Source: Oscillospiraceae bacterium (lineage in GTDB: Bacteria > Bacillota > Clostridia > Oscillospirales > Ruminococcaceae). Taken from it: a stretch of DNA of 64,000 bases. The translations under genes and the position numbers were made by a program. How positions within the stretch are numbered: position 1 is the stretch's first letter; each line of letters opens with the position of its first letter. Positions 19,690 to 50,049 of the stretch are shown here, in pieces. Under the pieces are notes generated by a model, which saw only the letters and a list, made by a program, of their open reading frames with translations, was not told the DNA's origin and searched no databases. The stretch covers positions 37,303 to 101,302 of the forward strand of contig JAFUWN010000069.1 in assembly GCA_017483465.1 (NCBI GenBank), in the 5' to 3' direction.

Positions 19690-19952
19690 GGACAATAGAA
19701 AAACGCCCTGAAAAAATTTTTCAGGGCGAACAGATTTTGTCCGTGTTACCACCTGAATTCAGATAATAAAAACTATCTGCACTCAACTACCCGATAACGG
19801 GAGTACCCGTCAGGAACTAATTTATAAAAATTATATTTCATCCCTGAAGCTCCGGAGCTACCTTCGGCCATTCTGCATACGTCCTTTCAGCAGCCGGACG
19901 CTCTCTGCAATGCAGGAAACAGCTTACTCCTCTCTTTCACAGCCTTTGATAA
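19690..19952 (-). ncRNA. T-box leader of valS
   Basis: The minus-strand leader of about 260 bases carries the T-box sequence AGGTGGTAACACGG (plus-strand 19741-19754), followed by a strong terminator hairpin at 19704-19728, the standard antiterminator/terminator arrangement. Upstream pairings of stem I are visible, with AGTA-type motif near the start. GAAGGTAGC (19857-19865) contains GTA, a plausible valine specifier codon. It would let uncharged tRNA-Val switch on valS. Confidence 0.9.
19698..19728 (-). terminator. T-box terminator hairpin
   Basis: CGCCCTGAAAAA / TTTTTCAGGGCG on the minus strand, followed by GTTTTTC. Competes with the antiterminator. Confidence 0.88.
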
Positions 19953-31983: not shown

Positions 31984-32014
31984 CAGCCCGGAAGTCGGTC
32001 ATACTTCCGGGCTG
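31984..32014. terminator. Hairpin between azlD and the minus-strand operon
   Basis: CAGCCCGGAAGT / ACTTCCGGGCTG, 12-base stem, 7-base loop. Weak T run on the plus strand; it lies between convergent genes and may stop both. Confidence 0.7.
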
Positions 32015-32043: not shown

Positions 32044-33024
32044 CTATTCCTGCGGCTTCTGCATCTGATAGGTTCTGTGCCGGAGGATTGCAATTTTTCC
32101 GGCGGTATCGCTGATATACTCACGGGTAAAACCGGAAATTCCTAAATCATAGCCGTCATAAGTCCCTGCATATTTTCGGGAAGGCGAGACATCAAGAATA
32201 TTTTCCAGTAAAACAAATTTTTCTTCTGCATGACTTTCTCCGGCAATGCAGGCATCATGTTTCAGGCAATAATCATCAAAGCACGAAGCCGAAGCCATTT
32301 CATTGCCGCCATATAATAAATAATCCATAGAAGCCTGATAAAACACACCGTTTTCGTTCAGATAGAAATAAAAAGCATAGAATTCCAGATCTTCCCGTGC
32401 TTCGATCAGATAGACATAATACATATCCGGATTGCCCTTGCTGTCAGAAGTATGGCCGATCTGTAAATTTTCAGAAGCTGTATAGGGAGAAAACAATTTC
32501 CGGATAAAAGCTTCTGCGGAACCGGTATAGAGTTCTGTCGGAGATTCCCAGCTTTCCGGTGCCGTTTCTTTGACTGTTTCTGTTTCGGAACGGAAAATAT
32601 GCTCTGTATAGCTGTCATATTCTGTTGCAGAATCGCCGTCTCCTTCCAGTACACCCCGCATTAATAAAATCGGATTCATAGCAATTTCCCCCTGATGCTG
32701 ATATAACACAGAGGCCATTGGAGAATAATTCTGGACAGAAACAAGAGTTTCCGGAAAGATACAGCATATTTCATTCATATAGGAACTTTTTCCTACAATA
32801 TGATACATTGTCTGTTCATACGCATCTGCCCAGAGATGAAATTCAGAATCGAGAGTTTCGAGCTGTGTATCATCAGGAACAGCTGTTCCGGAGATACTCT
32901 GACAAACAGGCAGATACTGATAATATCTCTGTGCTCTTGTTCTGTCCGCACCGGAAACGGCAGTGCCGCAGCCTGTCAGAGCAAGGCATGTGAGCACAGG
33001 AAGCAGAAAAAATTTTTTATTCAT
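32044..33024 (-). CDS. Lipoprotein of unknown function (last gene of envelope operon)
   Basis: A 326-residue lipoprotein: signal sequence with lipobox LTGC (Cys19). The mature part is acidic with aromatic patches (EFYAFYFYLNENG, DYLLYGG) and four to six cysteines. No family recognised. It overlaps the preceding gene by 8 bases and is the last gene of the eleven-gene operon that starts at 45268, so it likely sits on the outer face near the SEDS/transpeptidase proteins. Confidence 0.75.
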   Translation of the reverse strand: MNKKFFLLPVLTCLALTGCGTAVSGADRTRAQRYYQYLPVCQSISGTAVPDDTQLETLDSEFHLWADAYEQTMYHIVGKSSYMNEICCIFPETLVSVQNYSPMASVLYQHQGEIAMNPILLMRGVLEGDGDSATEYDSYTEHIFRSETETVKETAPESWESPTELYTGSAEAFIRKLFSPYTASENLQIGHTSDSKGNPDMYYVYLIEAREDLEFYAFYFYLNENGVFYQASMDYLLYGGNEMASASCFDDYCLKHDACIAGESHAEEKFVLLENILDVSPSRKYAGTYDGYDLGISGFTREYISDTAGKIAILRHRTYQMQKPQE

Positions 33025-34525
33025 AAAGCATCACCATCACAAGCCGGATACAGGAAAGCAGAATCAATAAAAATGCAGTTCCCGATACAGCGAGTATTCT
33101 TTTTTCTGTCCGGCCGAGTTTTCCTTTCTGGAACAGTGTATTCAGCCGATATTTGGCCGAAAGCTTTTCCGCAAGCAGAAGACTCCGGCTGTATTCCGGA
33201 AGATTGCGGATTCTTTCCGGGATTCTGAGCTGACAGGCTTCCTCTTTCATGTGTTCGGCAGTTTCTTGGGAATGATAATATTTTTCGAGTTCTTCTTCGC
33301 TGACGAGTTCACTCCAGTACAGCATAGCCGGAAGCAGATTTTTTTCAGGATTTTTTATTTTTTTCTCCGGATGTTCATGCCATGAGACAAAATGCAGCAG
33401 ATCAGAAATTTCTGTATTATTTTTATTTTCCTGAAAAAGTTTTTCCAGCACCGGAGCAGGAATTTCTTTTTCTAAGATATAGGCATAAATATCATCTATC
33501 GTATCATAAGAAATATCATCTGTGATAAAATGACAGCCTGTATTTTCCTGCACGGCTCTGACAAATGCCGGATAGGTCAGTATGACAGAGTCCTGGTATC
33601 TGACCGGCATTTCTTTGATCGCATGATATTCCTGCTCCCATGTTTCGAGCATAGGCAGAAGCAGTTCCGGAGAAATCCGGAAACATGCAAACAGATGCAG
33701 AAATTCCCGCAGTTCTTCAATTTCATGAATTCCGTAAACCGAAATATACTTTTCTGCCATCAGGCTGACAAATCCGCTTTCTATGCCGAATCCGGAAACA
33801 ATGCCGGAATCTGATTTGCTTTGTGTTTCAGAAATAAAATTATCATCCACGGACAAGAGCAGATATTCTACAGCTTTTTCAATCATATTCTGATCAAAAT
33901 ATTTTTCATAATTTTTCTGGACTTCCGAACCGGAAGCAAGCATGGCAATAAACTCCAGCATACTCACAGCCGGAGCACCGTACCGGAAGCATAACGCTCT
34001 GAAAATCCGGTTATCTTCCCGGAAAACAGGCAGTTTTTTCAGAAACCGGAGAGATTCTGTATCATAAATCATTTTTTTATGGCTGGTATTGAAAAATTTA
34101 TAATTCTGCCGGGAATCTTCATCAATCACCAAACCGGAGATCAGATCTTCCGGCAGATGTCTGGCAAAACTCTGGAGCAGTCCGGCAGTCTGATTCTGAC
34201 TATATTCAATCCGATGAAACGGCGAACAGCCTGTCAGAAAATTTTCAATCATCTGCGGCCATGCCTTATTTCTGGTATCTGAGGCAAAAACGCCGTCCTC
34301 GTTGCGGAAATCATCCACAGTATAGAGAAAGGACAGTCTTTCACCGGAATCAGGATTTTCTGCTTTCTGTACTTTCAGGACATTGCCTCTGTGGAAAATA
34401 TAATACTGATGTGAAATATTTTCGCACTGCATTAATAAATCCGTAAGTTCCGAAAAGCTGTCCGGAGCATTTTTCTCCCATGCATAGCCGTCACGGGACT
34501 CAAATACAGTATACTGATAAATCAT
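33017..34525 (-). CDS. Tail-anchored cytosolic protein, possible GTPase partner (GAP1-like N-terminus)
   Basis: A 502-residue, mostly helical soluble protein with one C-terminal membrane helix (~474-497, VSGTAFLLILLSCIRLVMVML), giving a tail-anchored topology. The beginning (YQYTVFESRDGYAW) recalls the N-terminal domain of GTPase-associated proteins found next to P-loop GTPases in some bacterial systems; this likeness is weak and needs a profile search. It overlaps the GTPase gene by ATGA, which supports a joint function. Confidence 0.6.
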   Translation of the reverse strand: MIYQYTVFESRDGYAWEKNAPDSFSELTDLLMQCENISHQYYIFHRGNVLKVQKAENPDSGERLSFLYTVDDFRNEDGVFASDTRNKAWPQMIENFLTGCSPFHRIEYSQNQTAGLLQSFARHLPEDLISGLVIDEDSRQNYKFFNTSHKKMIYDTESLRFLKKLPVFREDNRIFRALCFRYGAPAVSMLEFIAMLASGSEVQKNYEKYFDQNMIEKAVEYLLLSVDDNFISETQSKSDSGIVSGFGIESGFVSLMAEKYISVYGIHEIEELREFLHLFACFRISPELLLPMLETWEQEYHAIKEMPVRYQDSVILTYPAFVRAVQENTGCHFITDDISYDTIDDIYAYILEKEIPAPVLEKLFQENKNNTEISDLLHFVSWHEHPEKKIKNPEKNLLPAMLYWSELVSEEELEKYYHSQETAEHMKEEACQLRIPERIRNLPEYSRSLLLAEKLSAKYRLNTLFQKGKLGRTEKRILAVSGTAFLLILLSCIRLVMVMLYE

Positions 34526-35853
34526 GCTTTCGCCTCCGATGCATATTGAATAATTCTGTGCAGAAGGCTGTCCACATGCCGGGGCTGGTATAATTCTGCC
34601 TGAATTTTTCCGTTTTCAGCCGGAGTCCCCAGCGGAGCAATACACATAATATCCACTTTCCGGCCGGAAATCTGATTGCAGCAGGCAATAATATCCTGTA
34701 CAATTCTGTAGATTGTCTGATAGATACCGGAATTTTTCTGCTGCATTTTGGTACTGAGTTCGCTGCACATTGCCCGGAGAAGCGTTTCGGTATTATCCAT
34801 AAAATGATAATTCCGGATAACTCTGAGCTTATCATGGTCATAGCTGTTTTCTTTTCCTTTCAGCGGATAGAGCATAATATTATCTGCCGTATCAGGATAG
34901 AGATCGCATTTTGTGAAACACAGGATAATCGGTTTTGTTTCGTTTCTGGTACGGCAGTGCCGCTCCAGATCAGAGAGATACTGCCGGAGTCTTTTCAGGC
35001 CGGCAGTCTGCTCGGATTCTGAAACTTCATAGACAGAGGCAATATCCAGCAGGACAATGAGCATATCCGACCAGACAGCACGGTCAATACGGATTTCTTT
35101 GGTTTCTTCTCCACGGGTATCAATAATATTAATATCCTGATTTTTATCCGTCCGGAATGTAATCGGCGGCTGCGGAGAAAGTGTAGTTTCCGGTACTTTG
35201 CCTTCCCCGAGGGCTTCTTCTGCCTGTGTGAAATGCTGTTCAATAAAGGGTTCTTCCGTCATCAGCCGGAGATGTACCCGATTTTCAGGCTTTCTCATAG
35301 CGAGCAGAAGATTAGTCTTTCCGGCCTTGCTTCCGGCGATCAGAGAAACTGTAAAATTACTTTCCTGAGCTTCGTCGATCGACTCCCATACAGTTTCCGA
35401 TCCGACTGCTGTCCGGACGACATTCCGGGAAGACAAGATCAGATGACAGTTTTCGCATACCAGTTCGGTAGCGGCCATCGGCCGGAACGGCTGATAGATA
35501 AATAATGCTTTGCCGTCTATTGTAGCGGCATTTTCCAGCTCTTCGATACTGTCCGGATATTCTTTCTGGAGTTTCTGAACAGATTTTACAATAATTTTCA
35601 GACCGCTTTTTAATCTGAGTGTTTTTTCAGCAGCATCACAGCTTAATCTCTGCGGCTCGTCATCAGAAACAGAAATGCCGTAATAATTCAGTTTTGTTTT
35701 CATAATGCTGTCAGTCCGGGAACTGTCGAGGCCGATAATATCCGGAGAGCATTCAAAATAATTGGCATTCAAAGCCTCGAAATGAGCCGGAATCAGAAAC
35801 CGGGGATTCGTGACATCTTTCAGACAGTGAATGCAGACACATTTGTTGATCAT
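34522..35853 (-). CDS. Zinc-ribbon P-loop GTPase-like protein
   Basis: A 443-residue cytosolic protein. Two CxxC pairs (Cys7/Cys10 and Cys133/Cys136) suggest a split zinc ribbon. A P-loop AGSKAGKT at 173-180, DTRG at 245-248 (G3) and TKCD at 314-317 (G4) make a complete TRAFAC-type GTPase core. It may switch between GTP and GDP states to control the membrane proteins encoded in the same operon. ATG 35853 follows AAGGAAG; 22 bases after the preceding gene, and overlapping the next by ATGA. Related GTPases are found in mobile conflict-type systems and also in secretion or envelope clusters; the context here favours the envelope. Confidence 0.78.
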   Translation of the reverse strand: MINKCVCIHCLKDVTNPRFLIPAHFEALNANYFECSPDIIGLDSSRTDSIMKTKLNYYGISVSDDEPQRLSCDAAEKTLRLKSGLKIIVKSVQKLQKEYPDSIEELENAATIDGKALFIYQPFRPMAATELVCENCHLILSSRNVVRTAVGSETVWESIDEAQESNFTVSLIAGSKAGKTNLLLAMRKPENRVHLRLMTEEPFIEQHFTQAEEALGEGKVPETTLSPQPPITFRTDKNQDINIIDTRGEETKEIRIDRAVWSDMLIVLLDIASVYEVSESEQTAGLKRLRQYLSDLERHCRTRNETKPIILCFTKCDLYPDTADNIMLYPLKGKENSYDHDKLRVIRNYHFMDNTETLLRAMCSELSTKMQQKNSGIYQTIYRIVQDIIACCNQISGRKVDIMCIAPLGTPAENGKIQAELYQPRHVDSLLHRIIQYASEAKA

Positions 35854-35875
35854 ATTCTTACTTCCTTTCTGTCTG

Positions 35876-36994
35876 TTATCCGTGCAGACGGATATCCAGT
35901 TTGATTTTTACAAGTACTTCTTTCTGATTCAGCTCAGATTCGACATGATTGAACTGATGATAAAAGCTGATCATATCATGATAATGACAGGAATTATGAT
36001 TTTCTTTTTCTGTAAAATCTTTTCTTGCAAGTTCAATACTCTGCTGTGTCTGTCCGGAAAATTCCGAAGTCAGTGATTTGGAAGTCCGTTCGCCGTAAGT
36101 TTTGAAAGAAATTTTCAGGCTGTCCGGGAACAGTCTTAATAACAGGCCGTCATCCTGAAGATTGCCTTCTCTCGGCACACCGAAAATATTTTTTGCTAAG
36201 CTGATATATTCGTCCGGAAGATGATTTTCCGGAAACAGGGGTTTCCAGTCAGAAACCCGGAACGCCTGCTGATAAGTGATAATTTTATTTTTACGGGAAA
36301 TTCTGTCCCAGAAATGCGGATAAATTTCTTTTCGTCTGAATGCATTTTTATTCGCAAGATAATATTGCAGAATCAACGAGCCGGAATCAGGGTCTTCTGC
36401 TGTAATTTTAATTACTGCTTCAATATTTTTATTTAATTTTTTCTCATCTTTTTTGGAATCCGTACCGGAAGAAGAAAAATAAATTTCTTCCAGTGTTTTT
36501 CTGGCCGGAACTGTCCGTTTTTTTACCGGCTGAGGGCGAGGCTGTTCTTGTTTAGGAGCTTCCGGATTTTTCTGTTTCGTCTTTGTTTTTCTTTTCAGAG
36601 GCGGAACAGAAGCAGTTTCTTCCTGCTGATTCTGCGGAATAATAATCACAGTCTGCTGGTCTTCCCTGACAAGTCCGGTACGAATCAGATAATCCACACT
36701 CCGGTTAAAATCTTTCAGAGCCTCCTGAATCTGTTTCATATCTGTCCGGAGTGACTGAAAATCCTGATTCTGTGTGTATTGTTTCAGGGCATTCACAAAT
36801 TTTTTAATTTCCGGAAGCAGATCGGAATGATAACAGTTTTTTGCTCTTTGTTCTTCAATATGTTCCATTCTTTCACAGCTCTGGCGGAGTGCAGTTTCTG
36901 CCGGCTGTACAATGCGATAGGCATCTACTTCATCATGACGGCGGAACAAACCGACTGCATTTTCAATTTCATGCAGATCTTCCTGAATATTCAT
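35876..36994 (-). CDS. Cytosolic protein of unknown function in envelope operon
   Basis: A 372-residue soluble protein: an N-terminal helical, probably coiled region (~1-110), a Pro/Lys/Gln-rich linker (~125-170, PPLKRKTKTKQKNPEAPKQE) and a C-terminal domain (~185-372) with YLANKNAFRRKEIYPHFW. No family recognised. It overlaps the upstream membrane-protein gene by ATGA and lies 22 bases before the GTPase gene, so it may bridge the two. Confidence 0.7.
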   Translation of the reverse strand: MNIQEDLHEIENAVGLFRRHDEVDAYRIVQPAETALRQSCERMEHIEEQRAKNCYHSDLLPEIKKFVNALKQYTQNQDFQSLRTDMKQIQEALKDFNRSVDYLIRTGLVREDQQTVIIIPQNQQEETASVPPLKRKTKTKQKNPEAPKQEQPRPQPVKKRTVPARKTLEEIYFSSSGTDSKKDEKKLNKNIEAVIKITAEDPDSGSLILQYYLANKNAFRRKEIYPHFWDRISRKNKIITYQQAFRVSDWKPLFPENHLPDEYISLAKNIFGVPREGNLQDDGLLLRLFPDSLKISFKTYGERTSKSLTSEFSGQTQQSIELARKDFTEKENHNSCHYHDMISFYHQFNHVESELNQKEVLVKIKLDIRLHG

Positions 36995-38364
36995 GTCATA
37001 TCATCCTTTCTGACTTCCTGATTAATCTGCTCTGCACAGGTGCGGACAGCATCCAGAGCACACTGTAAATTCTGTGTATCATGACTGCTCAGGGAAACAT
37101 CACATTGTCTGTGCTGAGTTACGGAAAAGATATTCAGATAATATAAATGCCATATAAACGCTCCGGATTCCGTCTTTTTTTTCAGAGTTTCATAAGTCTG
37201 TCCGAATTTTTCCGGATAGGCGGAATCTTCCGGAAGGTACATTCTATAGGCATTCTGTATAATTCTGTAATGTGATAACAACTGCTGAAGCAGGAGCTGT
37301 TCTGTATCGGCAATACACTCGCAGAACAGGCCGGTGCATTTGTCATAGGCAGAAGCAACAACGGCATAATTCCGGAATTTTTCAAGATAAGAAAGATATT
37401 TTTTCTGTGATTTCTTATCTTTCTGTGCAGATAATTCCAGTAATTTCTGACTGTCCGGAATCCGGTTCAGAAGTGTCTGTGCCTGACTGAATTTTTTTTG
37501 CAGTTCTTCCGGCAGAGGTTCGGCCTCTGTTTCAGAGACGGCATTTTCTGCCAGAATTTCCGGATAATTCTGTATGACATATTCTGCGATAATCTGTAAA
37601 TCTCCGGCAAGGACTGCAAGAGGTTCGTACATCTGTGCCAGCATCAGGCAGGTATCAGAATCATAAGGATTTTCTTTAAAATATCTGCCTGTGATGTTAT
37701 GAGCCGAAACGGCTTTCAGATAGCCGTCAATTCCCGTCAGACTTTTTTTCGTCTGCTCCGGATAGCAGCGGTTGAGCAGATCGGCCGAATTTGTCAGATA
37801 GCTCCGGAAATCATGCCGGAGCATTTGAGCGAATTCCTGTTCGCTGTGAGCCTCATGAAAGGCATCACATCTTCTTGTCAGTTCCTGAAATTCTTTTTCG
37901 AGACTGCCGCACTGCCGGAGATTGGAAAAAATTTTAGTTATCTTTTCCGGCCGGAGACTCTGGGCATCTTTTTGCAGCAATTCGATCCGGCTTGCAAAAT
38001 AGGTGGTCTGTGCGATAGTTTCCCGCTGTTCGGGATAATGCTCCTGAAAATAGTCTCCGGCATTTCCGCAGAGATTCTGGATATTCCGGATATATTCCAG
38101 ATACTTCATGCTGCTATATTTGACAACGGCAGTATTTAAAATACAGAGCAGAAACGGAATGCCGACATAGATTTCCATCGAAGAGATCAGAAAATCTTTT
38201 GTTGCAGAAATAAATTTCCGGTTGAGAAACAAGCCGTCATCATAGAGAAACACCGGAAATTTCACAAAGCAGACATAGATCAGAAACAGTATAATCAGCA
38301 GCATATGCAGTAAGAATACAATAACAGCAGCTTTATTCCCCTTCGGAAACGGTTTCTGTTTCAC
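36991..38364 (-). CDS. Membrane protein with helical cytoplasmic domain, unknown function
   Basis: A ~457-residue protein with two N-terminal membrane helices (~13-37 and ~55-85) and a long helical, Gln/Leu-rich cytosolic region. No family recognised. The start is uncertain: GTG 38364 lies at ideal distance from AAAGGAG, while ATG 38370 is only two bases after it; I took the GTG. It begins within the last 32 bases of the pseudo-transpeptidase gene. The long helices suggest a scaffold for the cytosolic partner and GTPase. Confidence 0.68.
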   Translation of the reverse strand: MKQKPFPKGNKAAVIVFLLHMLLIILFLIYVCFVKFPVFLYDDGLFLNRKFISATKDFLISSMEIYVGIPFLLCILNTAVVKYSSMKYLEYIRNIQNLCGNAGDYFQEHYPEQRETIAQTTYFASRIELLQKDAQSLRPEKITKIFSNLRQCGSLEKEFQELTRRCDAFHEAHSEQEFAQMLRHDFRSYLTNSADLLNRCYPEQTKKSLTGIDGYLKAVSAHNITGRYFKENPYDSDTCLMLAQMYEPLAVLAGDLQIIAEYVIQNYPEILAENAVSETEAEPLPEELQKKFSQAQTLLNRIPDSQKLLELSAQKDKKSQKKYLSYLEKFRNYAVVASAYDKCTGLFCECIADTEQLLLQQLLSHYRIIQNAYRMYLPEDSAYPEKFGQTYETLKKKTESGAFIWHLYYLNIFSVTQHRQCDVSLSSHDTQNLQCALDAVRTCAEQINQEVRKDDMT

Positions 38365-39688
38365 TCGCATTACTCCTTTCCTGAGCGTATTCTTTATTGA
38401 TAAAATAAACAATACTGTCTGTGAACTGTAAAATTTTCTCATCTTTGCTGTAAAGCGTAAATGCTTTCTGGATTTTCTTATCTTTTGAGAGAATCACACC
38501 AGTGATATATTTAAAATCTGCATATTTTTCCGGCTGGTATTTCATGACAGAAATCTGATAGTCTTTATGACTTTCAGAATGATACGCTTCATATTCAGAT
38601 TTTAATCTGTTCTGTATGGATAATTCTGAAATTTCTGTCACAGGATAGTCCGGCAGAAGTCTGACTTCCCTGCCCTGCTGATCAAGAATTTTATCAATCA
38701 GCAGAGGCGTACCGGAGATACCTGAAAAAATTCTCTGTGTGATACTGTTCAGATGCAGAGGACTGATTTCAGAATCATCAGATTTTTTCATATTATCCGG
38801 CTGTTCAAAAATCAGATCAAAATCTGTTGTAAAGCAATATTTAAGAATTTTCTGTTGTTCTTCTGTTTCCGGGTCTGTTTTTGAAAATTCCGCACTCTGA
38901 ACCTGATAATCAAAATATTTTTTAATTTTCTCCTGTTCTTCCGGAGCAGCATTTTGAATTGCTTCTGATAAAAAATCAGAATTCAGACAGGCTTCGAGCT
39001 GAGTCAGACCGCTTTTTTCGCTTTCTGTACTGGTAACGCTGGTTGCTGTCATGACTTCAATCTGGCCTGTCGGCAAATCCTGTATGATACAGCCGCCTTT
39101 GATATGATTGATTTCAAGTAAATCATAGATCTGCATTTCCAGCTCCGGATTCAGGAATAACTGAATATCATAGCCTGTCGGGAATTCCGGAAGCGTATCG
39201 GCAAGGGAATCCGGATTGATATTCGGCACGGCTCGCATCAGAGGAGAAATCCCCTCTGTTCCGGGGAGATCGCCGTAAAGATATTCACATACTCTGTTCC
39301 GGCTCTGTTCGTAAAAAGAAGTATATAATACAGGCTTTGTCTCAATAGAATAGATCACATCTCCGTTTTTATCCAGGAGTCTGCCTCTCTGTGCGTAGAA
39401 ATTATAATCCGTATACTGAATATTATAGCTCTGAAATTCTTTGATAAGATTCTGTCTGGCATTTGCGGTCAGGTCATAGCCGTTATATTTCAGAGCAAAA
39501 CTGCTTTTTGACGGAACTGTTTCTGTAGTTTCGTCTTCATAGAAACTTGTAAAAAAGGCATAGACAGTATCATAAAAAATTGTACTGAATAAAATAAAAA
39601 TAAATATTAATATTAAAAAAATAATAAATAATCTGTGTTTCGGCCTTGTGAGGCGGATTTCAGATTCTTGTTTCTGATGATGTATCAT
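38333..39688 (-). CDS. Pseudo-transpeptidase (degenerate class B PBP-like membrane protein)
   Basis: A 451-residue protein with one N-terminal membrane helix (~20-46) and an extracellular region built like a class B penicillin-binding protein: RGRLLDKNGDVIYSIETKP matches the PBP dimerisation region (RGxIlDrNGevLA) and ELEMQIYDLL...GGCIIQDLPTGQIEVMTA the start of the transpeptidase fold. No SxxK, SxN or KTG motif can be found where expected, and the domain is short, so it should be catalytically dead. It follows the SEDS gene, the usual place for the cognate PBP, and may be its regulatory partner. ATG 39688 follows GGAGG and overlaps the unbroken SEDS frame by 29 bases. Confidence 0.75.
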   Translation of the reverse strand: MIHHQKQESEIRLTRPKHRLFIIFLILIFIFILFSTIFYDTVYAFFTSFYEDETTETVPSKSSFALKYNGYDLTANARQNLIKEFQSYNIQYTDYNFYAQRGRLLDKNGDVIYSIETKPVLYTSFYEQSRNRVCEYLYGDLPGTEGISPLMRAVPNINPDSLADTLPEFPTGYDIQLFLNPELEMQIYDLLEINHIKGGCIIQDLPTGQIEVMTATSVTSTESEKSGLTQLEACLNSDFLSEAIQNAAPEEQEKIKKYFDYQVQSAEFSKTDPETEEQQKILKYCFTTDFDLIFEQPDNMKKSDDSEISPLHLNSITQRIFSGISGTPLLIDKILDQQGREVRLLPDYPVTEISELSIQNRLKSEYEAYHSESHKDYQISVMKYQPEKYADFKYITGVILSKDKKIQKAFTLYSKDEKILQFTDSIVYFINKEYAQERSNASETETVSEGE

Positions 39689-41150
39689 GAAAACTCGCCT
39701 CCCTCAGACAATAGATCACCGGAATCAGCAGCATGAGCATAATAATAATATTCATAAAGCCATTGCTGATAAACGGCAGAGTCACACCGGTAAAGAAAAT
39801 CAATCAGAAATTGGACAGCACATGCACTGCTCCGGATGAAAACAACAGCAGACAGCCCGTTTCTGCCAGGGTAAACAAAGAACTGCTGATATATTTTCTG
39901 TTTTTTAATTTATAATTATGCAGATAAATACATGACAATAACGGTACAAGCAGATATAATAAAATCAGAGCAGCCGCACCCAGTCTGCCGAATACGGAAA
40001 TTAAATTCAGATAAGAAAAATCTTCGATTCTTGTATAGAGAGAACCGACCATATCCACAGCATAGGGAGTCGTACTCATCCCGGCACTGCTCTCCAGAAT
40101 TGCCTGATTCATATCCCGTATCTGCTGATAGCTCTGTAAATTGAATAATCTGTTCAGAATCTCCAGAGAAACAAACTGATTCAGCACCCAAAGACTGCAA
40201 TAACCGATCAGTGTCACGCTCAGGGCAATACTTCCGGCTTCTTTTCGGTATAACAGAAACAGCATCAGAATCAGAGTCAGGAGCATGACAATCATTGTAC
40301 CATGTTCACCGAGGATTAACAATCCTGCCATCAGACTGACAAATAACAAGCCGAGTTCCCAGTATTTCACATAAGGTTCTGACTGTTTTTTTCGTTTCTT
40401 GTCATTCCAGAGCATCAGGCAGTAAAAATTGAAGAAAAATAATAATTTATCCAGTTCCACAACCGCAACCCGCATAGACAGATTATGATTCAGCCAGCCT
40501 CGCAGAATAAAAAACAAAGGCAGATTCAATATGAAATAACTTCCGAACAGCAATGGTCTGCCGTGAGCCAGTCTTCTGCACCAATAGCGAATGGTATCTG
40601 CATCCGGATTATGCACCGGCAGAATCAGCGTAATGCCCCATAACATCACAGCAATGCCGAACGATTCCAGTCCGGCGACTGCAAAACGTTCCGGATTACA
40701 GCCGCTGATAGTGATAAAATTTAAAATCATTACGAAAAATGCAATCACAATATATTTTTTTCTCTGATAGAACTCTTTCAGTGCATAATACAGCATCAGA
40801 AAAATACTGATCATGAGGGAAACCGGTTTCAGCAGTCCGAGCAGATATTCCACTACTGCATGAAAATTCCCCGTCCGGAAGCCGACAATATATAAATTCA
40901 TAAAACAGCCGATATTCAGCATTAAAATCAGATAGGTGATAAAACTGCACTGTCTTGTATAGGTCGTTTCTGTTGCGAGCAGTTTCCGGAAAATCAGAAA
41001 TTTTACACCGCACATCAGAGCAAGAAATAATGCATAAATGCCGAATACACTGCACTGATAGCTGATTTTTTCTCCGGAGGTAAACAGCAGCGGTGAACAC
41101 AGCAGAAGCATCAGAACTTCCGGCAGAAATAAATTGCTTATCTTTTGCAT
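39660..41150 (-). pseudogene. SEDS (FtsW/RodA/SpoVE-like) protein interrupted by in-frame TGA
   Basis: The frame gives 448 residues up to TGA at 39804-39806 and continues in the same frame for 47 more codons to TGA at 39660. The part after the stop (LIFFTGVTLPFISNGF and a last membrane helix) is the conserved C-terminal LPF(I/F)S region of SEDS glycosyltransferases, so the stop is inside the gene. Ten helices and RIEDFSYLNLISVFGRLG, with the Asp of the extracellular catalytic loop, are kept. Intact, it would polymerise lipid II with a PBP partner. By alignment the stop replaces a residue that is usually Gly. It may be a nonsense mutation, a sequencing error or a readthrough site. AGGTG precedes ATG 41150. 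Confidence 0.82.
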
Positions 41151-41166
41151 GATCTCACCTCCGTGA

Positions 41167-42606
41167 TTAATAATACAAAGCCTGAATCATCCGGTATCTC
41201 AGAACAGAATCCGGCACATACCGGGAAGAGACATCCAGTCTGGTGCAGTCTTCCGCAGACGGCAGGACAGTACTGTATTTTTCCTGATAAAAACAGTTCC
41301 GGTAACGGGATTCTGACAGCATCAGCGTATCATAGAGCTGTTTGATTTCTGACTGTGTCATGGTAGTCCGGAAAGGTTTGCTTTCAGATACCGGGATATT
41401 TCCCTGTACGGCAGAGGTCAGCAGAGATAATATAAATTGATTCTGCATCACAGCAAGCTGATTTTCTGATAAAATTTTTCTGTCATACTCTTCACTGGCA
41501 AGATACTGTTCCAGACCTTTCAGAATGCCGTCAGTTTCTCTGATTGTATAAATACCGGATTCCTGCCATCCGATTCCGGAACATGCCGACTGTTCCGGAG
41601 AAAGTTCCAGAGTGATACTCTGTTCCGGCGGAATTGCTGTCAGGAGCCTGTCATTTTCAAGCGTAATAATATGATCAACCGCAATTCCGAATATATCCTG
41701 AAATGCAGTTTTGATCTGACTGAAATCTTCTGTATTAAAAATATCTTTCAATAATTTATAATCAGAAGTTTTTTGAATCAGATCAGGCTGAATTGTAATA
41801 ATTTCAATTTCTGCTTTTTCGGTATTTAATTTCAATAATTTTATTGCCTCGACAGCCGTTTCTGATTTTGTGATCACAAGTGTCAGAAAATTTTCATGCC
41901 GGTAAGTCTCGGCGGAAGATTCCGAAACAGCTGTGACAGAAGTTTCGGCCTGATATTTCAGAAAATGTTCCAGATTTTCAGAATTCTGCCGCAGCATGGA
42001 AACAGACAGCACCGGAATTACAAGCAGAGTGATCAGAACCGTATATAACAGATGTTCCGCACAGGGAAAGAAATGCTTTCTGTGATATGCCGATAACGGA
42101 AGTTTTCTGACATCTGCCGTACCGATCACAAGGCAGTTCTGTTTTTTTCCGTCAAGCAGATAAGAATAATTTGTAAACTGATAAGCAAAAAATTCTTCCT
42201 CCGTATCCGGACAGCGGAGCATGATAAAATCATCCGGAGTCCGATAGGCATGTAATTCTTTTTTATGCGGAAATGCCTCCGGAGATGAATAAATTTCTTT
42301 CAGTTCACAGGAAAATCTTCCGAATTTCCGGAATGAAAAAACAAGCAGTTTCCTGTCCGGCTGATATTCTGCCTCTTTATGGCAGATCAGATAAAATAAA
42401 TAAAAAAAGAAAAAGGCCGTCAACAGCACAGAAAACAGCATTTTCCGATAAGAAAATGATAAGATCAGCAGAATTACAGATAAAATTCCCTCTGCTGTCA
42501 GCAGAACCGGCATTATCCGGACAGATTTTTCCGAGGCGATTCCTGTCAGAATCCATGCAAATCCTAAAATCAGACACAGAATTAAAATTAAAATACGAAT
42601 AGTCAT
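41167..42606 (-). CDS. LCP-like (LytR-CpsA-Psr) membrane protein, degenerate
   Basis: A 479-residue protein with three groups of membrane helices (~3-22, ~33-75, ~185-205) and a C-terminal extracellular domain. The segment ILLKLNTEKAEIEIITIQ to AFQDIFGIAVDHIITLENDRLL (about 265-325) follows the layout of LCP domains, which attach glycopolymers to peptidoglycan, but the catalytic Arg-Asp (IPRDT-like) site reads IQPDL, so activity is doubtful. The soluble insert between helices 3 and 4 (~85-180) is unlike classical LCP proteins. Overlaps the transpeptidase lipoprotein gene by ATGA. Confidence 0.6.
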   Translation of the reverse strand: MTIRILILILCLILGFAWILTGIASEKSVRIMPVLLTAEGILSVILLILSFSYRKMLFSVLLTAFFFFYLFYLICHKEAEYQPDRKLLVFSFRKFGRFSCELKEIYSSPEAFPHKKELHAYRTPDDFIMLRCPDTEEEFFAYQFTNYSYLLDGKKQNCLVIGTADVRKLPLSAYHRKHFFPCAEHLLYTVLITLLVIPVLSVSMLRQNSENLEHFLKYQAETSVTAVSESSAETYRHENFLTLVITKSETAVEAIKLLKLNTEKAEIEIITIQPDLIQKTSDYKLLKDIFNTEDFSQIKTAFQDIFGIAVDHIITLENDRLLTAIPPEQSITLELSPEQSACSGIGWQESGIYTIRETDGILKGLEQYLASEEYDRKILSENQLAVMQNQFILSLLTSAVQGNIPVSESKPFRTTMTQSEIKQLYDTLMLSESRYRNCFYQEKYSTVLPSAEDCTRLDVSSRYVPDSVLRYRMIQALYY

Positions 42607-44255
42607 GCCGTTTCACCGCCTTCAATGACTCGCCGGAGAATCTGCTTATAGACATCTGTATAGCCGGAAGCAAATTCAGAATCCAGTTCTGTTCCGTTAT
42701 GAATATACAGCGTAACAGCCCAGCCTTCAGGAATTTCGGTTTCTTCCGGTTCTTCGGATTCCGTGATGAATCCGGTCAGCAGAAACCGCTTGAAAGTCGA
42801 GCCGTCATCGGCAGTACCCGTCTTGACATAGGCAGTATAGCCATCGTAAGTATACGGCATAATTTTTTTCATGCCTGCCCATAAAGATTCTCTGTAAGCC
42901 AACGGGATAGATTCTATTTCCGTTCCGGTATCATTTTCTGAAATTTCAGCATTTTCAGAATGATTATATTCCATATCTTTGAGTTTTGCTTCTGTAGAAT
43001 CGCTCTTGATTCTAAAGCGATACATATCGCCGGTTGCGACCGCACTTGTGACGGCATTCAGAAACAACGGTGAAGCATCGAAATAATTTCCTGTCGGCTG
43101 ATCGTCAATAATCTGACCGTCACTGCACATGCCGATCGCCATACGAGCAATCAGGAATTCCCGTTCTCTGGCATTTTCACGGGCTGTATCAATTGCATTC
43201 AGAGAGGGCTGCCGGAGATCCATCCAGTCGCACGGATAGAGATAGCCTGTTTTCTGTGAGCCGAATTCATTAAAGCCGAAATATCTGTTCATGATTTTAC
43301 AGATCGTCCGGAAGCCGTTTTCAGAATCGAGCAGTTCAGCGGCATTTTCTTTCTGAATTTCAAAATCTTCATAAAAGCTGCCTTTTGCGATGCTTTCATA
43401 GCCTGCGGCGAAGAAAGTATTATAAGAATTTACAAGAGAAGTTTCCATATTATGCCATGCCGGATAACTGCCTTTTGTATAATTATGATTAAATATATTT
43501 TTATTATAGCCGTAATTAATCACACCGGAATCGTAATAAGAAGTATCTTCAAAACTCATTCCGGCTTCCATCAGGACAATGCTGGACATCAGCTTTGCCG
43601 TACTGCCGTAGTAAACGCCGTCAGAATGATATGTCCGGCCGTTATGACCGATATACATCTTGTCAAACGGAATGATTTCATCTTCCGCACCGGAAGTATG
43701 ATGCAGAATATAATTCTGACTGCTCTCATCTTTTTCCAGAAGCGAATCAAACTGTTCGTGATCGGCACTGAGTTTGAATGCTCCGTCAGCATAATACTCG
43801 ATCGTATTGGTATAATCAGCAATCGCCTGAATTTTTCCGTGCATATCGCTGACAATGATACAGCCGTCAAGTTCATGCTCTTCTAAAATTTCCAGACAGT
43901 CCTGTGTCAGACCGGTATCAATATCAATTGCGTAGCGGATATCAGGGCCTATAATACCGTTATTGGTAATTTCCGAAATCAGCCCGTAGATCTGCTGACC
44001 GGTTTCGGAAACATGCCATGCTCCGTCACGGCGTTCTGATAAGATATTTCCGTCCTGATCAGTAACTTTGGTATCATAATCATATTTGGACTGTAAATCT
44101 TCCGTTTCTCTTTCCAGTTCTTCCGTACTCAGCAGATACGAAGCATCTACAGTTTCGGAAATTGTATGCAGCTGATAAGATTCTGCACTGTCTGCCTGAC
44201 TGCATCCTGTCAGCACACAGCAGACTGCCAGCAATAAAAACAGTTTTCTTTTCAT
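42603..44255 (-). CDS. Lipoprotein penicillin-binding transpeptidase
   Basis: A 550-residue lipoprotein (lipobox LTGC, Cys18) with a penicillin-binding transpeptidase fold. All three active-site motifs are present in order: S218-T-A-K221 (SxxK), S277-Y-N279 (SxN) and K478-T-G480. The N-terminal part includes QDGNILSERRDG and GCIIVSDMHGKIQAIADY, corresponding to PBP regions. It would crosslink peptidoglycan or hydrolyse D-Ala ends outside the membrane. A transpeptidase held by a lipid anchor instead of a membrane helix is unusual for class B PBPs. It is encoded with a SEDS protein, a pseudo-PBP and an LCP-like protein. ATG 44255 follows a weak GGAG. Confidence 0.82.
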   Translation of the reverse strand: MKRKLFLLLAVCCVLTGCSQADSAESYQLHTISETVDASYLLSTEELERETEDLQSKYDYDTKVTDQDGNILSERRDGAWHVSETGQQIYGLISEITNNGIIGPDIRYAIDIDTGLTQDCLEILEEHELDGCIIVSDMHGKIQAIADYTNTIEYYADGAFKLSADHEQFDSLLEKDESSQNYILHHTSGAEDEIIPFDKMYIGHNGRTYHSDGVYYGSTAKLMSSIVLMEAGMSFEDTSYYDSGVINYGYNKNIFNHNYTKGSYPAWHNMETSLVNSYNTFFAAGYESIAKGSFYEDFEIQKENAAELLDSENGFRTICKIMNRYFGFNEFGSQKTGYLYPCDWMDLRQPSLNAIDTARENAREREFLIARMAIGMCSDGQIIDDQPTGNYFDASPLFLNAVTSAVATGDMYRFRIKSDSTEAKLKDMEYNHSENAEISENDTGTEIESIPLAYRESLWAGMKKIMPYTYDGYTAYVKTGTADDGSTFKRFLLTGFITESEEPEETEIPEGWAVTLYIHNGTELDSEFASGYTDVYKQILRRVIEGGETA

Positions 44256-44271
44256 TTCTCACTCCTGACTG

Positions 44272-44649
44272 TTACTGTGAATGATCATAATAGGTATTGC
44301 GATAGGCTTCCAGGCCTTTGAATGACCATGACTCATGATTGGCAAGATATAATAATATTGCCGTATCTTCGTTATCAATCATACCGTCCTGATTCAGGTC
44401 GGCACATTCTATATCCTGTTTGGTATAGACACTTCCTTCCGGCAGATACAGTTCCTGCATTGCCGTGACATCCTCCCAGGTAATCTGAAAATCGGCATTG
44501 ACATCACCGAGATACCGGCTCACCTGAGAGGCATTTCTGACCTGATAGCTGTAAAATGCATGATACGTAAAAAAAATCACAACTGACAGCAGCAGGCATA
44601 TAATCGTGATAATAATCGCCATGATGACATAATTTCTGATCTGTTTCAT
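44272..44649 (-). CDS. Membrane-anchored dockerin-like protein
   Basis: A 125-residue protein: one N-terminal membrane helix (~7-33) followed by a dockerin-like domain (~46-105) with two calcium loops, GDVNADFQITWED and DLNQDGMIDNED, each followed by a helix. Type I dockerins bind cohesins; here the domain would stand at the cell surface, tethered to the membrane. It lies one base after the first lipoprotein gene and 16 bases before the transpeptidase gene. It could recruit a cohesin-bearing protein to the envelope machine, or be a calcium-binding structural module. Confidence 0.78.
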   Translation of the reverse strand: MKQIRNYVIMAIIITIICLLLSVVIFFTYHAFYSYQVRNASQVSRYLGDVNADFQITWEDVTAMQELYLPEGSVYTKQDIECADLNQDGMIDNEDTAILLYLANHESWSFKGLEAYRNTYYDHSQ

Positions 44650-44650
44650 T

Positions 44651-45268
44651 TTACTCTCCCCGCATCCGGAATGTGTTGATAATCCTGAGCATGGTTTCTA
44701 TATTTTCGGCGGTTGATTCGACGGAAACAATTCCCGTCCCGCTCTGATGAGAATAGGCCGCATGTTCCGGAGATTCCGGAATATCAAAAAACCAGTAGCT
44801 GATCAGCCTGGTTTCTGTGCCGGTATACAGACGGAAATCCAGTCTTCTGGCCTGAAAGCCGTTGATTTCAAAAATTTCTTCATATTCATGAAAACTGTTC
44901 AGATCTGACAGACTGGCACAGACATCATGCAGATACTGCTGATAACAGCGTTCATATTGTTCTTTGAATCTGGTTTCGAGCGTAATCAGATTTTTTCCGG
45001 AACGATCAGAAAACCGGACTACACCGTCACTGCTGCCTTTGTCGTATAATTCAGCCGCTTCCGGCAGATCAACAGTAAAATATAAATTTTTATACAATTC
45101 CGGAAATCTGTCTTTCAGAGCATAATACTGATCTGACAGTTCCGGTGTCACAGAGCCGTCAGCTGTTTCCAGATATACAAGATGTTCCGTTTCTTTCTGA
45201 CAGGCTGTGCAGACAGACAGGAATAAAATCAGCACAAAACAGGCTGTATATTTTATATAACTTCTCAT
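44651..45268 (-). CDS. Lipoprotein of unknown function (first gene of envelope operon)
   Basis: A 205-residue lipoprotein (lipobox VCTAC, Cys23) with a mixed alpha/beta mature part, including VVRFSDRSGKNLITLETRF and RLISYWFFDIPESPEHAAY. No family recognised; the fold may be like small PsbP- or DUF-type lipoproteins. It is the first gene after a consensus promoter at 45324-45352. Confidence 0.75.
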   Translation of the reverse strand: MRSYIKYTACFVLILFLSVCTACQKETEHLVYLETADGSVTPELSDQYYALKDRFPELYKNLYFTVDLPEAAELYDKGSSDGVVRFSDRSGKNLITLETRFKEQYERCYQQYLHDVCASLSDLNSFHEYEEIFEINGFQARRLDFRLYTGTETRLISYWFFDIPESPEHAAYSHQSGTGIVSVESTAENIETMLRIINTFRMRGE

Positions 45269-45323
45269 TTCATCCCACCCTGAAAAATAAAAAAATCTGA
45301 TTCTTTACGCAGTTTTCGTCTTT

Positions 45324-45352
45324 ATTATACCATGTTATGACAAATAAGTCAA
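45324..45352 (-). promoter_or_regulatory. Promoter of the eleven-gene envelope operon
   Basis: Minus strand TTGACT (45347-45352), 17-base spacer, TATAAT (45324-45329). No other strong promoter or terminator is visible until 32014, so one transcript of about 13.3 kb is expected. Confidence 0.85.
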
Positions 45353-45413
45353 GTTCATTATTAGTTTCAAATTTTTGCAGAACAGAAACAAAAGTGACAG
45401 AATAAAAAACAGC

Positions 45414-45486: not shown

Positions 45487-47367
45487 ATGAAAAGATTATT
45501 TTCTCTTTTGAGTTCGGTTCTGATTCTGCTCTCAGGGAATTTCAGTTTTATCGTCCATGCCGAAGATGTTTCGGACGAGCTGAACGGTATTATTTCCTAT
45601 CATCTGACACAATCCGGTTCTGATTCCGTTCAGAGCTGGATTGATACGGCTCTGACTGAAAATGCCGGTATCTCCTCAGAATGGTATATCCTCGCACTGA
45701 GTCAGAGCGGAAGCTACAATTTTTCTTCTTATCAGAATGCATTACATGCCTATCTGGACAGCCATGAAATTTATTCTGCTTCTTCCAGACTGAAATATGC
45801 TCTTGTACTCGCTTCGACCGGAGAAGATTCGCCTTATATCACTGAATCACTTGCAAATTCTATTGGTCAGCAGGGCATTATGAGCTGGGTCTATGCTCTG
45901 CATCTGATGAATAACGGCTATACTTGTGAGAATTATTCTATTGACGATGTGATCAGTCAATTATTATCCATGCAGTTGTCAGACGGCGGCTGGGCTGTTA
46001 TGGGAACTGTCGGCGATATTGATGTAACTGCAATGACAATACAGCCTTTAGCTGTATATTATCACAGCAATTCAGAAATTCAGAATGCCTGTGACAGAGG
46101 ACTGCAATTTCTCTCGGAACATCAGCTGGATTACGGAGGCTATCAGAGTTTCGGAACAGAAAATCTTGAAAGCACTGCTCAGGTTGTGACAGCTCTTGCA
46201 TCGCTCGGAACGGATGCTTTCTCTGATGAGAGATTTATCAAAAACGGAAATACACTTTTAGACGGCATGAATGTCTATCGGCTTTCTGACGGAAGCTACA
46301 GTCATACACATGACGGCATTTCTAATCCTACCGCTACGATACAGGCATTTTATACTTTTGTTGCGTATCAGAGATTTCAGAACGGCCAGAATCCTTTATA
46401 TATCCTGGATAAACCCGAAATTCCGGAAATTATCCCCGAACCGGAACCGGATTTCCCTGCCAATGAACCTGCCGTTCCTGAACCGGAACCGGATTTGATT
46501 CCGGAGATTCCCGAAACGACTGTGACAGAGCTTTCTCAGATTCCGGAAACAGAAACTTCTATGACATCCGATTCCGTACAGACTTCGGTATCTTTATCAG
46601 TCTCGGCATCAGTATCAGAAACTTCGGCTGTAATTTTCAGCGATACAGAAAATACAACTGTCTCACAGACGGAAACAAGTATCTCTGCTGTTTCGGATAC
46701 TTCTGTATTTTCCTCTTCGACAGAAACAAGTCTGACTGTCATCACAGAAACTTCCGTTATTTCTCCGGAATCACAGGAGATAAAAAAATCTGAACAGATC
46801 AGCCATCAAAAACTCATCATTCTTGCAGTTCTCTGGAGCATCGGCCTGCTGATTTCTCTGATACTCTGGATTCTGAAAAAAAGAAGTTTCAAGAATTTTA
46901 TCTTTATCGGCATAATCTGTCTGATTGGTTCAGGCATCATTCTGTTTATCCGGATTCAGTCAGCCGAAGAATATTATCATAAAAGTCCGGTTCAGAAAGA
47001 AAATGCCATTGGTACTGTCATAATTACAATCCGCTGTGATACGCTGATTGATAAAGCCGATTCTGAATATATTCCGGAAGATGGCATTATTCTTGATCAA
47101 ACTGAAATTCCTCTCTCTGACGGTGAAACGGTTTATGATATATTAATGCAGTCGGCTCAGGCCTATGGAATCCAGACGGAGCATAACAGTTCTTATTATA
47201 TTTCCGGTATCAATTATCTGTATGAAATGCAGTACGGCGATCTTTCCGGCTGGATGTACCGTGTCAACGGTGAACTTCCTTCGGTGGGCTGTGCAGAATA
47301 TCATCTCAAAGACGGCGATTTCATAGAATGGCTGTACAGCTGTGAAATCGGCAATGACCTGAAATGA
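45487..47367 (+). CDS. Transcobalamin-like surface protein (alpha/alpha repeats + DUF4430)
   Basis: A 626-residue protein: signal peptide (1-25), an alpha/alpha-barrel of terpene-cyclase/prenyltransferase-like repeats (~30-310, with LQLSDGGWAVMG, DYGGYQSFGTENLESTAQVVTAL), a Pro/Glu then Ser/Thr-rich linker (~315-430), two membrane helices (~440-462 and ~467-490) and a C-terminal DUF4430 domain (~515-622, with GWMYRVNGELPSVGCAEYHLKDGD). An alpha/alpha barrel plus a DUF4430-type beta domain is the plan of human intrinsic factor and transcobalamin, which clamp vitamin B12 between them. Both halves would be outside the cell. The next gene is an ECF S component, so corrinoid capture and uptake is the best inference. 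AGGAGG precedes ATG 45487. Confidence 0.8.
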   Translation: MKRLFSLLSSVLILLSGNFSFIVHAEDVSDELNGIISYHLTQSGSDSVQSWIDTALTENAGISSEWYILALSQSGSYNFSSYQNALHAYLDSHEIYSASSRLKYALVLASTGEDSPYITESLANSIGQQGIMSWVYALHLMNNGYTCENYSIDDVISQLLSMQLSDGGWAVMGTVGDIDVTAMTIQPLAVYYHSNSEIQNACDRGLQFLSEHQLDYGGYQSFGTENLESTAQVVTALASLGTDAFSDERFIKNGNTLLDGMNVYRLSDGSYSHTHDGISNPTATIQAFYTFVAYQRFQNGQNPLYILDKPEIPEIIPEPEPDFPANEPAVPEPEPDLIPEIPETTVTELSQIPETETSMTSDSVQTSVSLSVSASVSETSAVIFSDTENTTVSQTETSISAVSDTSVFSSSTETSLTVITETSVISPESQEIKKSEQISHQKLIILAVLWSIGLLISLILWILKKRSFKNFIFIGIICLIGSGIILFIRIQSAEEYYHKSPVQKENAIGTVIITIRCDTLIDKADSEYIPEDGIILDQTEIPLSDGETVYDILMQSAQAYGIQTEHNSSYYISGINYLYEMQYGDLSGWMYRVNGELPSVGCAEYHLKDGDFIEWLYSCEIGNDLK

Positions 47368-48065: not shown

Positions 48066-48092
48066 AAAAAGTCCGGCATCACCGGACTTTTT
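48066..48092. terminator. Bidirectional terminator containing the stop of the GGDEF gene
   Basis: AAAAAGTCCGG / CCGGACTTTTT, 5-base loop. The TGA stop of the minus-strand GGDEF gene (48079-48081) lies in the loop. Confidence 0.9.
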
Positions 48093-49950: not shown

Positions 49951-50020
49951 TCCGTTTCCCCCTTGTCGGACTGACAGAATCAGATTCCGGAAAATTCCGT
50001 ATAGATTTACACTATTGTCT

Positions 50021-50049
50021 ATTATAACATATTTTACCCTTTTTGTCAA
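50021..50049 (-). promoter_or_regulatory. Consensus promoter of the LacI-fold GGDEF gene
   Basis: Minus strand TTGACA (50044-50049), 17-base spacer, TATAAT (50021-50026). Confidence 0.9.

Follow-up and report, generated by a model that had tools for sequence, protein, structure and literature searches.

A conserved eleven-gene operon of Ruminococcaceae joins a divergent SEDS protein and a predicted split penicillin-binding protein to a DO-GTPase relative

Contig JAFUWN010000069.1 of an Oscillospiraceae bacterium (Ruminococcaceae; GenBank assembly GCA_017483465.1) carries, within the 64,000 nucleotides analysed here (forward-strand positions 37,303 to 101,302; hereafter the window, numbered from its first letter), a minus-strand operon of eleven genes, P0001-P0011, that joins a divergent relative of the SEDS glycosyltransferases and two relatives of penicillin-binding proteins (PBPs) to a GTPase. 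The operon is a real, conserved unit. Our favoured interpretation, to which we give a probability of about one half, is that it would encode a dedicated third synthase of the SEDS-class B PBP (bPBP) type, making peptidoglycan apart from the machineries of elongation and of division and sporulation and switched from inside the cell by the GTPase.

The gene set is present in 13 genomes, each counted once: that of the window and those of loci L015-L024, L102 and L103 (L006, L007 and L008 coincide with L016, L023 and L024 and were not counted twice). The host genomes are titled Ruminococcus or Oscillospiraceae, or are assigned to the same family. When these relatives were checked for scattering of the genes the unit held together, gene order being kept within the covered stretches at all 13 loci, bar one substitution in L021, L023 and L024, where a single gene replaces P0007-P0008. 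The full run lies on one contig in nine of the 13, with L016, L017, L018 and L103 cut by contig ends, and the flanks differ between loci. Proteins of L021-L024 share 15-38% identity with those of the window over nine genes; where divergence is greatest, P0004, P0007 and P0008, and at some loci P0002 or P0010 as well, were recognised by their position and by alignment, not by BLAST. Purifying selection acts on all eleven genes, as judged by ratios of nonsynonymous to synonymous substitution (dN/dS) of 0.06-0.31 between the window and L015 and 0.05-0.21 between L019 and L020, the GTPase having the lowest value in both comparisons (0.059 and 0.051, respectively). Pairwise-distance matrices of nine genes correlate at 0.95-0.99 (eight loci, 28 locus pairs), which points to joint descent and not to direct contact, because much of the correlation reflects the split between a close group and the diverged loci.

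The spread of the operon is patchy. A profile of P0006, the catalytically dead PBP relative (pseudo-PBP) described below, gave 38 pattern matches in a scan of 84,980 species genomes, ten of them true loci, all in metagenome-assembled genomes; sources are named for four of the ten (roe deer rumen, twice; goat omasum; horse faeces). A search of the genus found the operon in 10 of 38 genomes and added two loci, L102 and L103. Across the family, the GTPase located it in four of 247 genomes (five matches, G083 set aside) and the pseudo-PBP profile in four of 297 (five matches, G122 set aside); the G083 match (E-value 1e-3) was dropped as a frame without a surrounding operon, and the G122 match (7.7e-4, 65 positions) was counted as not the system. 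At class level, one of 391 matched at full length, the window's own genome. A further 20 weak partial matches (17.9-25.6 bits) were likewise counted as not the system; 11 of them gave a frame on the inspected strand, nine of those 11 contain all three PBP motif patterns somewhere, and five were taken into a PBP profile used below. No clean empty site was found among four operon-free loci of the genus, whose flanks are too different: both the transporter gene of the window and the AzlC-type gene next to it are present in L130 and L132, whereas L129 has the former alone and L131 the latter alone.

Eleven successive open reading frames run along the minus strand from 45268 to 32044, in agreement with the first-pass annotation of the window, which was made from the letters alone, and they stand in numerical order, P0001, P0002, P0003, P0004, P0005, P0006, P0007, P0008, P0009, P0010 and P0011, from 5' to 3' (Table 1). 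Junctions along the operon measure 1, 16, -4, 16, 115, -110, -4, 22, -4 and -8 bases. The annotation had described gaps of 1-22 bases or overlaps throughout; this is accurate for nine of the ten junctions and fails at the SEDS/pseudo-PBP junction, which spans 115 bases because an in-frame TGA at 39806-39804 ends P0005 early. The 110-base overlap of P0006 and P0007 shrinks to 38 if P0007 begins at its own Met25, where there is a better ribosome-binding site. The single consensus promoter proposed for the run was recovered at 45352-45324 (TTGACT-17-TATAAT); its letters are unchanged in all six aligned sequences (the window, L015, L018, L019, L020 and L102), so that it is no chance match. Five diverged loci were also inspected, with good promoter-like sites in L021 and L103 and weaker ones in the other three. 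Upstream of the -35 element by 25 bases lies a second conserved block, present in the window and five relatives and possibly a regulator site, the letters of which also occur once within the L022 locus, away from the promoter, in a pattern count over the loci. A longer version of this box had no match even in the window, which is one base shorter there, and Rfam at gathering scores returned nothing within the operon.

P0005 is, in its predicted activity, a divergent SEDS glycosyltransferase. Its family profile aligns with three ordinary SEDS proteins of its own genome at an hhalign E-value of 1e-8 over 225 columns (control pairings of unrelated proteins, here and for the PBP profiles below, gave 0.17 or worse), and the catalytic-loop Asp, already pointed out in the annotation, is invariant in 11 of 11 sequences. 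The motif TGxxxPxxS is found in 10 of 11 SEDS rows and is absent solely from the truncated window copy. Both the motif and the loop Asp have roles in SEDS proteins, the Asp being catalytic in RodA and FtsW. Elsewhere in the same genome, three SEDS genes of the ordinary kind and five genes for transpeptidases lie over the Pfam cut-offs, and the operon stands apart from them. In that own-genome scan PF01098 at E-values up to 1 misses the operon SEDS and the operon PBP falls just under its own cut-off, so annotation based on Pfam would miss the operon.

The premature stop in the window's SEDS gene raises the question of whether this is a decaying cluster of pseudogenes in this genome, which we consider highly improbable. 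The frame continues open beyond the TGA and holds a conserved TGVTLPFIS stretch, overlapping the start of P0006 as it does in relative L015. Compared with L015, 13 codons differ in this stretch (dN 0.019, dS 0.453), values indicating that it was selected until recently or still is. Since the 47 codons past the stop are conserved, the other ten genes are open and the SEDS gene is open in all 12 other copies found, the stop is either recent or an assembly error (a copy newly disrupted, or one misread), and intact copies exist elsewhere.

The operon encodes two PBP relatives. P0003 has SxxK, SxN and KTG in nine of nine aligned PBPs, and PF00905 matches eight of nine homologs (best 2.7e-21; the window copy scores 19.7 bits against a cut-off of 22.1), upholding the earlier description of a lipoprotein with these motifs. 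The P0003 profile aligns with PBPs at 2.7e-16 over 299 columns and with the four PBPs of its own genome at 5.4e-10. In place of a transmembrane (TM) anchor it has a lipoprotein signal, and just a short pedestal-like stretch is seen; lipoprotein signals throughout, and this stretch, were read by eye, and TM helices were estimated with a simple hydropathy scan. Without a TM anchor and a full pedestal, P0003 is better termed a bPBP-type transpeptidase than a standard bPBP.

P0006, on the other hand, is anchored by a TM helix and has lost the catalytic motifs. Among 11 such pseudo-PBPs there is no SxxK column common to six or more, and the KTG position reads [ILVA][TA]G, its Lys gone in all 11; a K-S-G common to nine of 11 sits elsewhere than this position. 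The framework remains similar to that of PBPs, as expected of the PBP-like protein without catalytic motifs that had been proposed: hhalign E-values are 9.2e-6 against the own genome's four PBPs (53 columns), 5.5e-5 against the operon PBPs (109 columns) and 5.3e-4 against a single PBP encoded on contig C113 of the same genome, and a four-row profile matches 4mnr at 0.0032. Against a six-member PBP profile the value is 1.7e-8 over 250 columns, a score that is flattered, and not independent, because five of the six members were found through the pseudo-PBP profile.

Among the SEDS/PBP loci fetched from the same genome, the operon's SEDS, PBP and pseudo-PBP all find their best match in the C113 SEDS-PBP pair, the SEDS local match spanning just 24 columns. 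Against the C113 PBP, the pseudo-PBP aligns at the N-terminal pedestal region and P0003 at the catalytic domain, and we therefore read P0006 and P0003 as a candidate split bPBP. In ordinary bPBPs the membrane helix and the pedestal region contact the SEDS protein, and the pedestal activates SEDS proteins such as RodA and FtsW.

A third envelope-enzyme relative, P0004, is a membrane protein with a domain like that of LCP (LytR-CpsA-Psr) proteins. Its profile matches 3pe5 at 2.2e-4, no Pfam LCP match was obtained in 10 P0004 members, and the positions of the catalytic Arg and Asp are not conserved in the alignment, so that the altered active site ascribed to it in the first reading stands. These two residues have catalytic roles in LCP proteins. 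Their loss, and the far divergence of all three wall-enzyme relatives from ordinary ones, would suit a different product, in which SEDS, PBP and LCP relatives have been repurposed as a polymerase for another surface polysaccharide and no peptidoglycan is made. We judge this distinctly improbable, as SxxK, SxN and KTG in nine of nine PBPs point to a peptide substrate and the SEDS loop Asp is invariant.

Profile comparison places P0009 among the DO-GTPases described by Kaur et al. 2020 (PMC7159879), a relationship that had gone unnoticed in the first reading, so that the GTPase half of the operon has a described relative. The claimed P-loop GTPase motifs are kept: P0009 shows a split zinc ribbon, a P-loop, DTxGE and [TS]KCD, and DTxGE (with Glu at Walker B) and the two CxxC of the N-terminal zinc ribbon occur in nine of nine GTPases. 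PF19993 (DO-GTPase2) matches seven of nine members, best 1.4e-6; those of L021 and L024 exceed its cut-off, those of L016 and L022 have no match, and the window copy scores 14.6 bits against a cut-off of 27. PF01926 matches five of nine (best 0.002) and PF14331 four of nine (best 0.0061). With hhalign, the GTPase aligns at 1.1e-8, 4.4e-8, 1.1e-6 and 3.5e-5 with four proteins encoded at two GAP1 loci, all four of them above a DO-GTPase cut-off. Seven P-loop frames of the window's own genome gave 3.2e-4 or worse, a limited control because most of these frames are of ABC type and two of them are short pieces.

The gene for the tail-anchored P0010 directly follows that for the GTPase with a four-base overlap, the place that GAP1 takes after DO-GTPases. 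Identity with GAP1 was rejected on sequence and is kept as a positional analogy, there being no GAP1 match in nine P0010 members and hhalign values of 0.02 or worse against nine GAP1-N2 proteins. Fibronectin type III (FNIII) repeats gave no match in P0001-P0010 at E-values up to 1, nor in P0011; among ten P0004 relatives, one matched (0.052) a family whose name refers to an Fn(III) domain. In five other loci (L047, L048, L050, L051 and L053) GAP1-N2 genes were seen with no zinc-ribbon GTPase adjoining; these loci share a neighbourhood, in which one gene resembling PyrG and two resembling ABC transporters lie.

Membership among the DO-GTPases brings with it an alternative in which the operon is a system for conflict or envelope stress as understood by Kaur et al., with the wall enzymes as its output, switched on by damage or an invader. 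The patchy spread (10 of 38 genus and 4 of 297 family genomes) and differing flanks would suit such a role, as would the DO-GTPase systems close to the membrane, with partners that vary and domains that bind peptidoglycan, set out in the available part of that paper (PMC7159879) and the membrane-stress role predicted for a DO-GTPase in the accessible text of PMC11237479. We nonetheless hold it to be unlikely. P0010 has no GAP1 similarity and no FNIII protein was found, a PADLOC scan of 10 proteins (P0002 left out) returned one match, to Cas11 at 15 bits, and the wall genes are constant across the 13 loci, unlike variable effectors. Neither did searches for mobile elements find P0009 in plasmids, P0006 in phages or profile A11 in viral contigs.

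The operon's second gene provides a link to the cell surface. P0002 combines one TM helix with a type I dockerin, in which the calcium-loop positions of the duplicated loop are conserved in nine of nine aligned rows. In the same genome a cohesin scan gave 11 matches, nine of them over the Pfam cut-off and five in one 1466-residue frame, which makes it likely that the genome has a cellulosome (background in the available text of PMC12484212) and possible that the predicted P0002 dockerin has a cohesin partner. The cohesin modules lie at about 27404-34291 of contig C41. These features are what might be expected if the operon were a machine that assembles or anchors a surface structure, such as a cellulosome or fibre: wall synthesis would open or mark the place, and a cohesin would dock on the membrane dockerin. 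That reading seems doubtful to us, since a dockerin beside a wall operon is no proof of cohesin binding and the fold may just bind calcium; moreover, cohesins were sought in one genome, in which the operon sits on contig C42 and the scaffoldin-like gene on contig C41. Two further dockerin proteins occur in the window, one with a C39-type peptidase (12619-13467) and one with CBM6 (24103-26817), both on the minus strand.

How might such a synthase operate? The analysis establishes the gene set with its conservation, family relations and motifs, and a topology from hydropathy; a complex, its enzymatic activity, its gating and a part for the dockerin are inferred. P0005 would polymerise glycan from lipid II. 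The pseudo-PBP P0006, which keeps a membrane helix and pedestal, would be its non-catalytic activating partner, and P0003, the lipoprotein PBP, would crosslink the product, so that activation and catalysis, usually combined in one bPBP, would fall to two proteins. P0004, LCP-like but catalytically dead, may bind the polyprenyl-linked substrate or nascent wall. On the inner face, the GTPase P0009 could gate or position the synthase, with tail-anchored P0010, P0007 and P0008 keeping it at the membrane, while outside, the P0002 dockerin and the lipoproteins P0001 and P0011 may sense or tether something, possibly a cellulosome cohesin. A bolder version, which we regard as rather improbable, would make this a third kind of wall machine, directed by a DO-GTPase and not by FtsZ or MreB, employing a split PBP and building where the membrane dockerin holds the cellulosome.

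Several observations weigh against a dedicated peptidoglycan synthase. PF01098 is matched by two of 11 operon SEDS homologs, best 4e-5, and a PDB profile search places an acetylcholine receptor (0.026) before FtsW (1.2); PF00905 is matched by one of 11 pseudo-PBPs, at 0.12. The assembly's own copy of the SEDS gene is cut short and possibly inactive, the polymer made could be something else than peptidoglycan, and gene neighbourhood is the sole ground for the proposed GTPase control. The presence of the operon in just 10 of 38 genus and 4 of 297 sampled family genomes implies that it is dispensable.

The remaining operon proteins, P0001, P0007, P0008 and P0011, have no known-family match at a useful score. 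Lipoprotein-type signal sequences were seen on three operon proteins, that of P0001 being atypical, and the membrane dockerin, lipoproteins and tail-anchored protein of the first-pass annotation are consistent with Pfam, these signals and the hydropathy scan. Coordinates are collected in Table 1.

Table 1. Features of the operon and its surroundings, in window coordinates
Feature	Position	Strand	Basis
Upstream box TTGTTTCTGTTCTG (TTGTTTCTGTYCTG), possible regulator site	45378..45391	-	conserved block, 6/6 aligned
Promoter TTGACT-17-TATAAT, extended -10 (TG ahead of -10)	45324..45352	-	11/12 consensus match
P0001, lipoprotein-type, 205 aa, no known family	44651..45268	-	homologs aligned; best PDB profile match 0.025
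P0002, one TM helix and dockerin type I (paired EF-hand)	44272..44649	-	PF00404 1.5e-6, over cut-off
P0003, predicted lipoprotein PBP of class B type, STAK / SYN / KTG	42603..44255	-	PF00905, hhalign, motifs
P0004, membrane protein, LCP-like domain without catalytic Arg/Asp	41167..42606	-	profile against 3pe5
P0005, SEDS-like predicted glycosyltransferase, ended by in-frame TGA 39806-39804	39804..41150	-	hhalign, Pfam
Open continuation of SEDS frame beyond TGA, 47 codons and stop, conserved	39660..39803	-	
P0006, TM-anchored pseudo-PBP, PBP framework kept, catalytic motifs lost	38333..39688	-	hhalign, motif audit
P0007, two TM helices and large soluble part; likely start 38370	36991..38442	-	hydropathy scan, ribosome-binding site
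P0008, soluble, no TM helix, no known family	35876..36994	-	Pfam, hydropathy scan
P0009, zinc-ribbon P-loop GTPase, DO-GTPase family (predicted)	34522..35853	-	PF19993, hhalign
P0010, tail-anchored partner, no known family	33017..34525	-	C-terminal TM helix 475-502
P0011, lipoprotein, no known family	32044..33024	-	homologs aligned; no Pfam match
Hairpin, 12 pairs, 3' of operon, possible terminator; weak T run on minus strand	31984..32014	-	

The window holds other features outside the operon. Its divergent neighbour at 45487-47367, on the plus strand, has a weak squalene-cyclase-like match, a Ser/Thr-rich linker and DUF4430, and similar genes adjoin the operon in L015 and L018-L020 (by eye; in L019 by BLAST). 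Further away are a Hen1 and Pnkp RNA-repair pair at 54985-58930 on the plus strand (Hen1_L 4.1e-99, PNKP_ligase 1.5e-166), a T-box leader of 137 bits at 19719-19949 on the minus strand, upstream of a large minus-strand gene, a GGDEF-EAL protein (7656-9620) and a GGDEF protein with a periplasmic-binding domain (48079-50049).

In essence, the operon is, on its predicted proteins, of the SEDS-bPBP kind joined to a DO-GTPase, a combination for which no description was found. The annotation knew of none, and our literature search, whose coverage excludes most subscription papers, also gave none. SEDS-bPBP pairs are usually described within the elongation, division and sporulation machineries. A conserved operon with a SEDS protein, a split PBP and a GTPase behind a single promoter would make two questions testable: can the bPBP pedestal and transpeptidase be separate proteins, and can a GTPase other than FtsZ direct wall synthesis? 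If the proposed synthase is real, the DO-GTPases would gain a definite biochemical output.

DO-GTPases have been described computationally, as supposed conflict systems, in the available portion of Kaur et al. (PMC7159879), and as far as that portion goes the DO-GTPase/GAP1 systems resemble the operon in their PF19993 zinc-ribbon GTPase with Glu at DTxG, the adjoining partner gene, the TM-bearing partners and their occurrence in Firmicutes. The operon differs in having no detected GAP1 or FNIII component and in having wall-synthesis proteins as partners; the main text of that paper contains FtsW, RodA, transpeptidase, penicillin and dockerin zero times each, and peptidoglycan nine times. A parallel for an NTPase of defence-family kin moved to a division role is PcdA of Staphylococcus aureus, as presented in the accessible part of PMC10602043; there, by contrast, the NTPase is an AAA+ protein acting through FtsZ, with no dedicated synthase operon. 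P0004 is like LCP proteins in its profile match to 3pe5, and departs from them in its missing catalytic Arg/Asp and its several TM stretches. A further comparison is with SEDS-bPBP synthases (RodA-PBP2, FtsW-FtsI, SpoVE-SpoVD and the genome's own C113 pair; background for Firmicutes is given in the available text of PMC10693644), with which the operon shares the SEDS loop Asp and a PBP encoded nearby. In contrast to those, the operon's transpeptidase is predicted to be lipid-anchored, the TM helix and pedestal region lie on a second, dead PBP, a GTPase, an LCP-like protein and a dockerin are added, and the sequences are far diverged.

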